Shown in pieces: positions 20,930 through 28,529 of a stretch of DNA of 41,994 nucleotides. This stretch comes from a virus: IMG/VR virus record IMGVR_UViG_3300046096_000342, positions 1 to 41,994 of that record; one strand, 5' to 3'. The notes under the pieces are model-generated. The model saw nothing but the letters and a program-made list of their open reading frames with translations, had not been told where the DNA came from and did no database searches. The translations under genes and the position numbers were made by a program. Position 1 is the stretch's first letter, and every line of letters starts with the position of its first letter.

Positions 20930-21174
20930 AGCGCACCACTGCAGACCGGGCACCCTCCACCGAGGAGCGCTACCTATCCTCTCAGCGTGGCAGTAATTTG
21001 CGCACTACCGCAGACCGGGTGACCGACGCTGATGCCTTGATTGCGGCCGGCTTAGTGTCAGGTGCGGACCCGAAGATGAATGTGGCGCTGGCAGTGTATG
21101 GGGTTGGCGATGAGCTACAAGCTGGCCAACCGGTCCAACCGAGGCGCGCGCATCAAGCGCATCGAGGCCTATGA
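20926..21174 (+). CDS. Small phage protein, unknown
   Basis: 82 residues from GTG 20926, overlapping the DUF3310 stop. It has a duplicated TTADR element (TTADRAPSTEERY and TTADRVTDADAL), then MNVALAVYGVGDEL. The final 20 residues are in the overlap with the next gene and look unselected, so the real product may matter mainly in its first 65 residues. Confidence 0.5.
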   Translation: MKRTTADRAPSTEERYLSSQRGSNLRTTADRVTDADALIAAGLVSGADPKMNVALAVYGVGDELQAGQPVQPRRAHQAHRGL

Positions 21175-21454
21175 CCTGGCGATGCTGCTCTTAAAAGTCT
21201 GGCACAAGCGCACCTGCCCCGAGTGCAGCGGCCGCGGGCACCCACTTTTATCCGACACGCCAGTGATGGATGAGTCGATAGATTGCCCGCACTGCCATGG
21301 CATGGGCCAGATACCCCTGGAGAGGATCTTTGGCGCGCACCGGGTCGAGCACGCACGCTGGCTTGAGAACGAGATCAACACTTTGAACAGCCTGATTTTT
21401 GCCGTCATGGCGAAGAAGCTCAGCACACAGATGGATTTAACACCCCAACGATAG
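21110..21454 (+). CDS. DnaJ-type zinc-ribbon protein, possible Q-like antiterminator
   Basis: 114 residues from ATG 21110. CPECSGRGHPLL ... CPHCHGMG (residues about 39-65) is a CxxCxGxG pair as in DnaJ and in lambdoid Antiterm/Q proteins. The flanking helices (IKRIEAYDLAMLLLKVW; HARWLENEINTLNSL) fit a small nucleic-acid or polymerase-binding protein. Given its place in the middle of the rightward operon and several terminators between late genes, a late antiterminator role is plausible but not proven. Confidence 0.65.
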   Translation: MSYKLANRSNRGARIKRIEAYDLAMLLLKVWHKRTCPECSGRGHPLLSDTPVMDESIDCPHCHGMGQIPLERIFGAHRVEHARWLENEINTLNSLIFAVMAKKLSTQMDLTPQR

Positions 21455-25839: not shown

Positions 25840-26138
25840 CCGACTTATCAAATGCGGCAATATTTATCGGCAGCATAGCAATGGCAGCAGGTGGTCTCGG
25901 GATCGTTGCCGCATTGCTTTTTTCGGCGGCATGGATTGTTGGTGCGCTGACGTGGCGAGTACAAAAGCACTTGATGGGCATCACACGAGCCACAACAGCG
26001 GTTTATTGGGTGAAGCGAATGGAACGTGAAGGGTTGACTATGCCCATGCACGATTACCGGAGGATGGTTGCAGAGCAAAATCCAAAAACGGTAGCTGACT
26101 ACCAAGAAGTTGACCGCAAATGGAGTGCCAGCAAATGA
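25836..26138 (+). CDS. Membrane-anchored small protein
   Basis: 100 residues. Two hydrophobic stretches (about residues 7-23 and 25-40) form either one long or two short transmembrane segments, followed by a basic cytoplasmic-looking tail of 55 residues. It might serve in exclusion or lysis timing, but nothing specific is visible. Confidence 0.65.
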   Translation: MTDLSNAAIFIGSIAMAAGGLGIVAALLFSAAWIVGALTWRVQKHLMGITRATTAVYWVKRMEREGLTMPMHDYRRMVAEQNPKTVADYQEVDRKWSASK

Positions 26139-26335
26139 CCCGTTCCGACTCCCCGTGCATAGCAATCTGTGACACCCTCTATCAACCCACCCACTGCTCA
26201 GGCTGCGGCCGCACTATCGGTGAGGTTGCCAACTGGGTCGGCATGACCGAGGACGAGAAAGACGCTGCGTGGCTGCGTATTGAGACTCAGGGCACGGCCA
26301 AGAGGTTTACGACTTACAAAGAGAGGGCGCAATGA
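26135..26335 (+). CDS. DUF1289 protein
   Basis: 66 residues from ATG 26135. DSPCIAICDTLYQP ... HCSGCGRTIGEVANW with a four-Cys site is the DUF1289 signature, a small predicted Fe-S or zinc protein usually found in bacterial chromosomes. Its presence in a phage small-gene block suggests host origin. Role unknown. Confidence 0.85.
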   Translation: MTRSDSPCIAICDTLYQPTHCSGCGRTIGEVANWVGMTEDEKDAAWLRIETQGTAKRFTTYKERAQ

Positions 26336-26474: not shown

Positions 26475-26732
26475 ATGGACCGCGAGTATCTGGAAGAGAA
26501 CAACCCCGAGGTTTTGATCCTTGAGCCACCGTCGCTTGACGCGGCCATTCTTGGCCTGGTGGACCTGGGGGACAAGGAGGTGCTGCTGTACAGCACCAGG
26601 AAGCTGATCGAGTGCTTTGAGAAGGAGGGCATGAGCTACGACGAAGCGGTGGAGTGGGTGGACTTCAATGTGCTCGGCGCCTACATGGGGCCGTACACAC
26701 CTAAGTTCTTGACGGTGGAGTGGGGGGACTAG
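26475..26732 (+). CDS. Small acidic phage protein
   Basis: 85 residues from ATG 26475 behind GGGAG. It is acidic with a hydrophobic core (NPEVLILEPPSLDAAILGLV; KEVLLYSTRKLIECFEKEG; AVEWVDFNVLGAYMGP). The C-terminal 'E.A.EwvdfN..gAy.G..TP' pattern is a common small phage protein. Its stop overlaps a palindrome copy (26732-26746). Confidence 0.7.
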   Translation: MDREYLEENNPEVLILEPPSLDAAILGLVDLGDKEVLLYSTRKLIECFEKEGMSYDEAVEWVDFNVLGAYMGPYTPKFLTVEWGD

Positions 26733-26746
26733 TGCACTCAGTGCAC
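26732..26746. repeat. GTGCAC palindrome copy 8
   Basis: Perfect, touching the last gene's stop codon at the left edge of the late control region. Confidence 0.9.
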
Positions 26747-27360
26747 AGTGAAAAAAGTTACCTAACAGTAGACACAATGTATTCTGTTTGATCTACAATG
26801 CCGGTAGCGACAAATACGGACAGACAGCCCCGTAAAAACAATATGTGATCTTTTGGGGGGGTAGGTGCCTCTGAAAGGTCCAAACGCATGCTTACTGATG
26901 GGTGGATTGGTCGATCCTCCATGACTGCAGGCCTCCAAGGGCAGCATCAGTCTTCAGTCGTTTGAGAGCTCAAGAAGACTGGATGACGTCATCATTCAAG
27001 ACGGTCTCTAAATGTCCACGAATGGTCGATTGGTGCACGCAAGCACTCGTGATGTCCTGGTAACAGGCCCATCATGAAAACGTAGGGTTCGATACCCGCA
27101 GCGCGAAGTCCTGGAGTGGCCAGGTACGTTTTTATGATGGTGTTATTGCGCAGACTGATGCGCTATGAAGATCGACGCAACACTGCCAAACCAACCCCCC
27201 AACTTCTGGCGGGCCTGTTGAAATACAGGCAGCAGCAAGCAATCCGGAGATCAGTACCGGCCCCATCACGCAATTCGCAGTGCCCACCCCAGGCGGTGGC
27301 GCCCACTTAATTGCTGGGCTGTAGTCGGCTCAAATCCGGTTGCATTGCACCCAACACACC
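26747..27360 (+). ncRNA. Non-coding control region with long hairpins before the late genes
   Basis: About 615 bases with no credible gene. Strong plus-strand stems: CAGTCTTC/GAAGACTG (26948-26981) with an inner TTGAG/CTCAA; palindrome GATGACGTCATC (26982-26993); CGTGATG/CATCATG (27048-27076) around CCTG-GTAA-CAGG; and a 16-base stem (27069-27084/27125-27140) with one G-U. The last two share bases, so they are alternatives. Two hairpins (GGGT-TCGAT-ACCC; CCTGG-AGTGG-CCAGG) sit inside the 16-base stem. Further: GCGCA..TGCGC (27149-27164), GCCTGT..ACAGGC (27212-27229). It may be a late-control leader, packaging site or stable RNA. Confidence 0.5.
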
Positions 27361-27389
27361 GCCACCCAGGGCAACCTCGGTGGCTTTTT
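27361..27389 (+). terminator. Rightward rho-independent terminator
   Basis: GCCACC and GGTGGC stem extended by AGG-GCAA-CCT (GNRA loop), followed by TTTTT. It separates the early small genes and the non-coding region from the packaging genes. Confidence 0.85.
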
Positions 27390-27423
27390 CATTGGCCTCC
27401 TGCCAGGAAGGCAAGGAGATCAC

Positions 27424-27906
27424 ATGGCCGCAGCTAAGAAAGAAGTCGACTGGAAAGTCGTAGAGCGAGAGTACCGAGCAGGGGTTAAGACCATGCGCAA
27501 GCTGGCAGACGAGCATGGCATCAGTCACGCAGCAGTCGGCAAGCGCGCCAAGCGGGATGGCTGGACGAGAACTGCAGTGCTCGCAACCCCAGAAAAGTCA
27601 GCGGTAGTGCTCACCCCATTAGATGAGATGAGCTCCGATGGGTTTTTGTATGTCATCTACCTTGATTCCGGCAGTGAGCGCTTCTACAAGATTGGAATGT
27701 CCAAGCGATTTGGATCAAGGCTTGAGCAGCATCAATGCGCCTCGCCTTTCGACATTTGTGTGGCTATCTGCTACTTCACCGGCAATATGCGCAATGAAGA
27801 GCGTGCTCTGCATCAGAGATTTGCAGCCCAGAATGTTCGGGGCGAGTGGTTTCGGTTGAGTGACGACGATCTGGCTGAGATCGCCTTGAGGGCGAAACTG
27901 GTATGA
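27424..27906 (+). CDS. TerS-HTH / GIY-YIG (MUG113-T5orf172) fusion nuclease
   Basis: 160 residues from ATG 27424 (ribosome site AAGGAGAT). Residues 9-49 (VDWKVVEREYRAGVKTMRKL, AKRDGWTR) are closely similar to residues 8-48 of the TerS gene directly after it (IDWKPVEKDYRAGIRPLRDI, AKRDGWTR). The rest is a MUG113/T5orf172 GIY-YIG nuclease: FLYVIYLDSG, FYKIGMSKRFGSRLEQH, NEERALHQRF and GEWFRLSDDDL. It looks like a selfish endonuclease that captured a duplicate of the TerS DNA-binding head and now targets the packaging region. Confidence 0.85.
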   Translation: MAAAKKEVDWKVVEREYRAGVKTMRKLADEHGISHAAVGKRAKRDGWTRTAVLATPEKSAVVLTPLDEMSSDGFLYVIYLDSGSERFYKIGMSKRFGSRLEQHQCASPFDICVAICYFTGNMRNEERALHQRFAAQNVRGEWFRLSDDDLAEIALRAKLV

Positions 27907-28529
27907 GCGAGACCGCCGCAATCGACTGGAAGCCGGTAGAGAAGGATTACCGCGCAGGCATACGACCACTGCGTGACATCGCCAAAGACAACGGCATCTC
28001 CGAAGGCGCTATTCGGAAGCGCGCCAAAAGGGATGGATGGACGCGAGACCTCACTGACCGCATTAGGTCAAAGGCCGTAGAGAAGGTACGCAAAGCAGAG
28101 GTACGCAGCGCTGGTACGCAAAAAAACGTACTTAGCACGGCTACCGAGAAACAGGTGGTGGATGCCAACTCTGACATCCTCGCAAGCGCTGACCTGATCA
28201 ACCGCAAGGATGTTCTGCTGGCGCTGGATGTGTCCCGCTCGCAGCTGGAAGAGGTTGCATCGCTCTGTGATCCACTGTTCAGGGGTGACCTGGATCGACT
28301 AGGTGATTTGATGGACCAGTCAACTCCTGGAAAGCCTGATCGAGCTGCAGAGATGTATCGCTACATCATCAGCCTTGCTGGCCGCATCAAGATGGGAAAG
28401 GATGTTGCTGCCACGCACGGTGTTTACATCCCGATGCAGCGCAAGATCCTCAAGCTCGATGAAGAGGGCGACCGCAACCAGTCCAACCTGGATGCGTTGC
28501 TGGCCAAGATCAACGCGGCAGCCGACTGA
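27903..28529 (+). CDS. terS: Terminase small subunit
   Basis: 208 residues. An N-terminal HTH (LRDIAKDNGISEGAIRKRAK, residues about 27-46) precedes a helical oligomerisation region and a charged C-terminal tail. The family recognises the packaging start site and stimulates TerL. It overlaps the upstream gene by four bases and the TerL start by one base. Recognition rests on the HTH pattern and position. Confidence 0.85.
   Translation: MSETAAIDWKPVEKDYRAGIRPLRDIAKDNGISEGAIRKRAKRDGWTRDLTDRIRSKAVEKVRKAEVRSAGTQKNVLSTATEKQVVDANSDILASADLINRKDVLLALDVSRSQLEEVASLCDPLFRGDLDRLGDLMDQSTPGKPDRAAEMYRYIISLAGRIKMGKDVAATHGVYIPMQRKILKLDEEGDRNQSNLDALLAKINAAAD

Follow-up and report, generated by a model that had tools for sequence, protein, structure and literature searches.

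A probable modular structured RNA of phages with a conserved pseudoknot and overlapping tRNA-like folds

The viral DNA analyzed here, IMG/VR record IMGVR_UViG_3300046096_000342 at its full length of 41,994 nt (henceforth, the window), contains a noncoding interval that we consider likely to encode a modular, structured phage RNA, whose strands can enter two overlapping folds and whose action would be that of a tRNA mimic in trans. Within the interval, the RNA most likely occupies about positions 26940-27390. Its elements, their covariation, the relation among three of its strands (A, B, and C), and its nearness to tRNA genes are established by comparison of sequences, and the identity and anatomy of the RNA are much firmer than its function, for which tRNA mimicry is our preferred, and tentative, guess. 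Two of the principal elements, a pseudoknot at 26974-27040 and a tRNA-like domain at 27135-27270, had gone unnoticed in an initial annotation of the region.

The interval comprises 691 bases between the end of an open reading frame (ORF) at 26732 and an ATG at 27424, and the ORF list offers no convincing ORF within it (26733-27423), which bears out the earlier description of some 690 noncoding bases ahead of the packaging genes. Fold z-scores are −2.4 for 26747-27400 and −3.2 for 26940-27392, and neither ARAGORN nor RF00005 detects a tRNA or tmRNA in the window. The features of the interval are as follows:

26733-27423, plus strand: noncoding interval from the last small ORF to the TerS-like gene (ORF list, sequence)
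26974-27040, plus strand: H-type pseudoknot core (covariance model R1, 72.7 bits, the window itself being in the seed)
26976-26979/27004-27007, plus strand: helix P1 of the core
26991-26997/27020-27026, plus strand: helix P2 of the core
27048-27054, plus strand: strand B0 (CGTGATG), the 5′ arm of the 7-bp stem of the initial annotation (minimum-free-energy structure)
27056-27067, plus strand: hairpin CCUG-GUAA-CAGG with a GNRA loop, kept in relative L035 and occupying the site at which other members have an CCGGAAAGACGG hairpin
27069-27084, plus strand: strand A, the 5′ arm of the 16-bp stem
27085-27124, plus strand: loop closed by the A-B stem; contains two hairpins (GGGTTCGATACCC and CCTGGAGTGGCCAGG)
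27125-27142, plus strand: strand B, of which 27125-27140 pairs with A
27135-27270, plus strand: tRNA-like domain
27148-27163, plus strand: D-arm-like hairpin GCGC-AGACTGAT-GCGC, with compensatory D-stem types among relatives
27244-27260, plus strand: T-arm-like hairpin CCGG-AGATCAGTA-CCGG
27261-27270, plus strand: strand C (CCCCATCACG), the 3′ acceptor strand, matching B at 7 of 8 pairs
27361-27389, plus strand: probable intrinsic terminator, GCCACC..AGG-GCAA-CCU..GGTGGC followed by TTTTT (sequence, predicted hairpin)

The stem that first drew attention to the region is present as described: CCATCATGAAAACGTA (27069-27084) and TACGTTTTTATGATGG (27125-27140) form 16 pairs, including one G-T, with a pair probability of about 1 in the thermodynamic ensemble. 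This is the longest helix in 26747-27389; a helix of 16 pairs was reached in 5 of 200 dinucleotide shuffles, such that the stem, taken alone, is only modestly unusual (about p 0.025). A competing 7-bp stem, CGTGATG/CATCATG (27048-27054/27070-27076, 7 pairs including one G-T), had been proposed as the other half of a switch. Mutual exclusion itself is supported, between the pairings A-B and B-C described below, but the named rival is not: its pair probability is about 0, and L035, the closest of the divergent relatives, retains just 4 of its pairs. When 27030-27290 is folded, the best predicted structure has its 5′ arm (B0) forming a perfect 7-bp helix with 27264-27270 of strand C. The terminator claimed for the end of the region is plausible, consisting of a hairpin followed by TTTTT; it is absent from the output of a consensus terminator scan, probably on account of its inner mismatch. 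An alternative helix joining the 5′ strand of helix P1 to the upstream hairpin (26948-26954/26975-26981 in the window) was found in 10/61 cases, versus 6.1 ± 2.2 by chance, and was rejected as a family feature.

The pseudoknot core was recognized when window positions 26600-27500 were compared with phage records in a sensitive search. Five records, all from Schitoviridae (RiverRider, Paxi, PB119), share 50 to 58 bases around 26975-27032, and the match falls within a 600- to 800-base gap in a tRNA cluster, unannotated except for one small ORF call. Pattern scans for the core extended the set to about 70 contigs of viruses and five from bacterial genomes. After the removal of chance matches to degenerate patterns (L037, L038, L043, L045, L050, L055, L056, L066, L069, L070, L081-L084, L087, and L094), 79 loci remained, representing 60 distinct cores from viral contigs, Schitoviridae tRNA clusters, an Escherichia coli prophage, and a few MAGs. 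The window core is 88.6% identical to that of L035 over 105 nt. Two crossing helices are laid out as xxxxC-UGGAUGAC-yyyyUUC-AAGACG-Gx'x'x'x'-n-AAAUGUC(C/U)-nnn-AAy'y'y'y', with near-invariant linkers (UGGAUGAC, AAGACG, and AAAUGUCCAC).

Covariation across homologous phages, the check originally suggested for the region, proved to be strong. Among the 60 cores, pairs 1 to 4 of helix P1 are intact in 238 of 240 cells and show as many as four Watson-Crick types (four at pair 2); overall, 262 of 299 cells in this helix are paired, versus 198 ± 5 when its arms are dealt among sequences. Helix P2 has a covariation score of 0.464, versus 0.120 ± 0.017 when dealt and 0.05 to 0.12 when slid, and its G-T pairs clearly outnumber A-C. 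In random bacterial genome samples, centres aside, the core occurred in 0/368, 1/384, and 1/296, a rarity as expected of a mobile element. With filters off, the core model found no core in phages P1, HK620, mEp460, and others. P1 (L178, 1085-1180) and HK620 (L397, 2238-2300) do share the series GCGACTTTGCGG..TTTAGAAACTGA..TAAATGCAAACGA, which to the eye, and without a model score, resembles a degenerate pseudoknot core and can serve as a lead.

The second element is marked in relatives by two conserved hairpins, GCGC-AGGCUGAU-GCGC and GCCGG-AGAUCAGCA-CCGGC. Strand C lies directly 3′ of the GCCGG hairpin and is complementary to strand B, which precedes the GCGC hairpin. The resulting order (strand B, AAU, D-like hairpin, variable part, T-like hairpin, strand C) is, as read from these sequences, the topology of a tRNA, including an acceptor 3′ strand placed directly after the T-stem. 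In family terms, the domain has an acceptor of 7 to 9 bp, an AAU linker in most members, a 4-bp D-arm-like hairpin, and a 5-bp T-arm-like hairpin; the window deviates in having one mismatch in its acceptor (7 of 8 pairs, 27135-27142 with 27261-27268), a 5-nt linker, and a 4-bp T-stem.

A strict descriptor of the domain returned nine tRNA-like units, with none in 2.25 Mb of background, and two hairpin pattern scans raised the number of distinct units to at least 135, among which there are 8 D-stem and 11 T-stem types. The acceptor was assessed on 120 nonredundant units chosen without regard to it, which contain 75 distinct acceptors: B and C are paired at 90.2% with 225 double changes, versus 63.2% and 69 double changes (maximum, 89) after redistribution of the C strands over the units. 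G-T and A-C hardly differ in this helix (31 versus 27). Over about 6 bases, the D-like and T-like loops are complementary to each other, and they show compensating variants, usually GCUGAU/AUCAGC but ACUGAU/AUCAGU in the window (where T-loop ATCAGT can pair with D-loop ACTGAT), GGUGAU/AUCACC in L334, and GCGAU/AUCGC in L035; conservation of the loops is in part by construction, units having been selected on conserved loop sequences. These are not canonical tRNA loops, as the T-loop has 9 nt and the contact is a Watson-Crick kissing interaction, and the mimicry could be one of topology only.

The two folds meet in strand B: 27125-27140 pairs with A in the 16-bp stem, and the overlapping segment 27135-27142 (TGATGGTG) is the 5′ half of the acceptor in the tRNA-like domain. 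A helix of 15 to 22 bp lies downstream of the core in many members, its distal sequence being unrelated among them, and in the L009 group and L034 this helix encloses tRNA-type D- and T-arm sequences; in L009-type relatives, a tRNA-like sequence thus fills the A-B loop that corresponds to 27085-27124 in the window. Long upstream A-B helices (score ≥12) that overlap the acceptor strand are present in 35 of 109 units, versus 1 of 109 with shuffled upstream sequence. Both being complementary to B, A and C carry one common word, which differs between phages (CACAAC, CCATCA, CACCAACA, CCACAGG, or ACTATCA). A, B, and C change in concert, and A-B and B-C are mutually exclusive within one molecule. 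Mutually exclusive helices kept by covariation are what riboswitches and attenuators would display, but a fixed position before one kind of regulated gene is not found here, as the neighboring genes are diverse. In the window, A-B greatly exceeds B-C in stability and prevails in the predicted ensemble; by this prediction, B-C may be limited to processed RNA or to contacts between molecules.

Judging by their distribution, core and domain belong to one kind of RNA as separable modules. In 1.8 Mb of loci retrieved through the tRNA-like hairpins, the core model gave just two hits, both of them ~240 to 390 nt upstream of a tRNA-like domain, on the same strand and with A and B in between. Conversely, 7 of 60 cores have a nearby tRNA-like domain according to a relaxed descriptor that misses the window itself, and a few more do so by eye. 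Most tRNA-like domains have no detectable core, and phages P1 and HK620 carry the domain alone. What we treat as one RNA may accordingly be two modules that travel together.

The tRNA-like domain is far commoner than the core: it turns up in 126 phage records, among them those of HK620, HK633, mEp460, and numerous phages of Klebsiella and Pseudomonas. In phage P1, the stretch from the ban promoter to tciA contains at least three A/B/C units, situated around tRNA-Asn and tRNA-Thr, and the P1-type piece is present in 864 plasmid records. The P1 units are antisense to the annotated plp and upl (L178, NC_005856, 1673-2242), which may not be real genes and are probably spurious annotations. In E. 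coli prophage 21AR0133, the core, an CCGGAAAGAC hairpin, and A-B stems lie between the repressor and ParB genes; in a Sashavirus, one unit separates head from tail genes; in Salmonella phage STGO-35-1, the flanking genes on either side run antisense to the domain and to a tRNA-Met; and in HK620, the domain sits between the late promoter pR′/qut and the terminator tQ. The CCGGAAAGACGG type of hairpin, which the window replaces, is found at the corresponding position (27056-27067) in 19 other members. Overall, relatives adjoin integrase, ParB, primase, exonuclease, sigma-factor, capsid, terminase, or tRNA genes.

tRNA genes are found within 1.5 kb on the same strand in 16 of 104 units and on the opposite strand in none, compared with 0 of 68 control windows from the same contigs; near cores, they occur at 28 of 79 loci. 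They stand directly before, after, or inside units. Some loops near A-B stems in the enterobacterial group read GGG-CUCAUAA-CCC, which we take to be the sequence of the initiator tRNA anticodon arm, and A-B-adjacent loops in L042, L064, L078, and L178 (1955 and 2234) carry GGG-NNCAUA(A/U)-CCC. On a P1-like plasmid (L096, 2657-2785), RefSeq lists a 129-nt “tRNA-Met” that is tRNA-like with a long insertion and starts at the end of a B strand. At +240 to +656 from the core of L025, ARAGORN calls a permuted tmRNA, which may be genuine or another tRNA-like unit.

In the window, the RNA interval precedes TerS, TerL, and portal genes. The gene run before it includes a small DUF1289 protein (26120-26335), and two successive TerS-like genes come after it (27424-27906 and 27903-28529). 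The second of these is a full TerS; in the first, the TerS N-terminal DNA-binding part is fused to a GIY-YIG-type MUG113/T5orf172 domain, an arrangement that resembles a homing-endonuclease gene having acquired the DNA-binding domain of a terminase. This fusion has relatives in L100-L106.

No Rfam 15 family matches the RNA by cmscan, permissive thresholds yielding only chance snoRNA and miRNA hits, and no description of it was found in the open-access literature, although the unnamed candidate lists of PMC8040213 could contain pieces. This widespread family is thus absent from Rfam and apparently undescribed, whereas large structured phage RNAs near tRNAs are known as a general kind. In L026 (8590-8672), Proteo-phage-1 RNA (RF03044) follows the core on the same strand at a distance of ~0.3 kb, and it is again near the core and on the same strand in the contigs of L060 and L025; it differs in being a separate 82-nt motif that is missing from the window and from most members, and it is probably a neighboring module, though it may itself belong to these RNAs as an additional module. 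With tmRNA and viral tRNA-like structures, the RNA shares an acceptor/D/T topology like that of tRNA, set within a larger RNA that has a pseudoknot (two loci have weak, sub-threshold tmRNA scores), but it has no mRNA-like tag, its loops are noncanonical, and its acceptor strand is common to a second fold.

The main rival to tRNA mimicry is a large “ornate” RNA of the GOLLD or ROOL kind, abundant during infection and forming homo-oligomers through complementary loops and the A/B/C strands, a reading that we regard as possible and on the whole rather improbable. Both ROOL and GOLLD, which are found in phages near tRNA islands, assemble into nanocages (PMC12286853), and the niche is the same: at the sequence level, the window RNA is a structured phage RNA of several hundred nucleotides from a family associated with tRNA islands. 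Like GOLLD, it belongs to phages and prophages, adjoins or contains tRNAs, and combines pseudoknots with loop-loop contacts (PMC12286853); like ROOL, it is of similar size and has pseudoknots and kissing loops (PMC12286853). The tendency of all A-, B-, and C-type strands of a given RNA to carry one common word would also allow swaps between copies. Against this, the conserved core is another one, joined here to modular tRNA-like units, and sequence and architecture differ from those of ROOL. Covariance models of GOLLD (RF02032) and ROOL (RF03087) do not match at gathering score or, on the region, at E up to 10; a search of 11 records for both families was likewise negative, which counts for little, as the positive controls were silent too. 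Furthermore, the units differ in number between the window (one) and P1 (several), which is unlike a fixed cage subunit. An unlikely alternative is a tRNA-processing or maturation cassette, in which A-B stems are RNase III sites, tRNA-like domains guide the cutting of tRNA precursors, and lone copies are remnants. The tRNAs found directly before, after, or inside units would suit such a cassette, as would the A-B stems that are continuous with a tRNA-like acceptor stem in L009-type relatives, but 88 of 104 units have no tRNA within 1.5 kb, and yet their acceptor and loops covary.

It is similarly doubtful that the RNA is a cis-acting late leader controlling read-through into the packaging genes, whether by Q/qut-like or put-like antitermination or by A-B/B-C attenuation. 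The initial annotation had cast the interval as a late control region, and its place ahead of TerS, TerL, and portal genes, its terminator, and its mutually exclusive pairings are all in keeping with that role, as is the late-leader position of the HK620 domain, which is comparable to that of the lambdoid pR′-tR′ leader (6S RNA) and the HK022 put RNAs. Most relatives, however, lie elsewhere in the genome, among the diverse neighbors and tRNA clusters described above, and the STGO-35-1 unit is antisense to both of its neighbors, which speaks against a dedicated late switch. Nor does the window resemble a lambda-type late (Q) region: no plus-strand sigma70-type promoter match precedes the RNA, and the only weakly Q-like protein, the product at 21080-21454 once named as a candidate regulator (the “21110 protein”), stands 5 kb away, its Q-like profile match (E, 0.0056) being equaled or exceeded by zinc-ribbon-type profiles. 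Least probable by far is a DNA element, such as a pac/cos or recombination site. The position directly upstream of TerS would suit the earlier suggestion of a packaging initiation site, which the relatives do not support: they keep no conserved position at terS, most are not near it, and no core was found with the nearest relatives of the downstream TerS-like gene (L100-L106). The excess of G-T over A-C in helix P2 (hardly present in the acceptor) is as expected of an RNA read from this strand, nearby tRNAs are on the same strand only, and terminators come after the RNA in both the window and HK620. Taken together, the diversity of positions, the unit that runs antisense to its neighbors, and the terminators speak for an RNA that would work mainly in its own right and not as a leader tied to packaging.

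tRNA mimicry is our leading guess because of the tRNA-like topology, the tRNA neighbors, and the embedded tRNA arms. The RNA would be transcribed, probably as far as the terminator at 27361-27389, with a conserved H-type pseudoknot in its 5′ part and, in its 3′ part, a tRNA-like domain whose loops would be joined by ~6 Watson-Crick pairs. Strand B would close either a long hairpin with A or the tRNA-like domain with C, one strand thereby serving two folds, and in some relatives, A-B would be the acceptor stem of another tRNA-like sequence. We infer that the RNA acts mainly in trans, mimicking tRNA toward the tRNA-handling machinery, with processing enzymes, tRNA-cutting defenses, or the ribosome as candidate targets, and the choice between A-B and B-C would set which mimic is present.

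Possibly, then, these RNAs form a widespread class in phages, prophages, and phage-plasmids, P1 included, that act in trans as bistable tRNA mimics against or through the host tRNA machinery. Should the overlapping tRNA-like folds prove to be genuine switches, they would constitute a new RNA architecture and could explain the noncoding padding in some phage tRNA regions. In P1, plp and upl, and in RefSeq the 129-nt “tRNA-Met,” suggest that the RNA also misleads annotation. The hundreds of natural variants, the strong covariation, and the copy in phage P1 make these proposals directly testable in a classic laboratory system.
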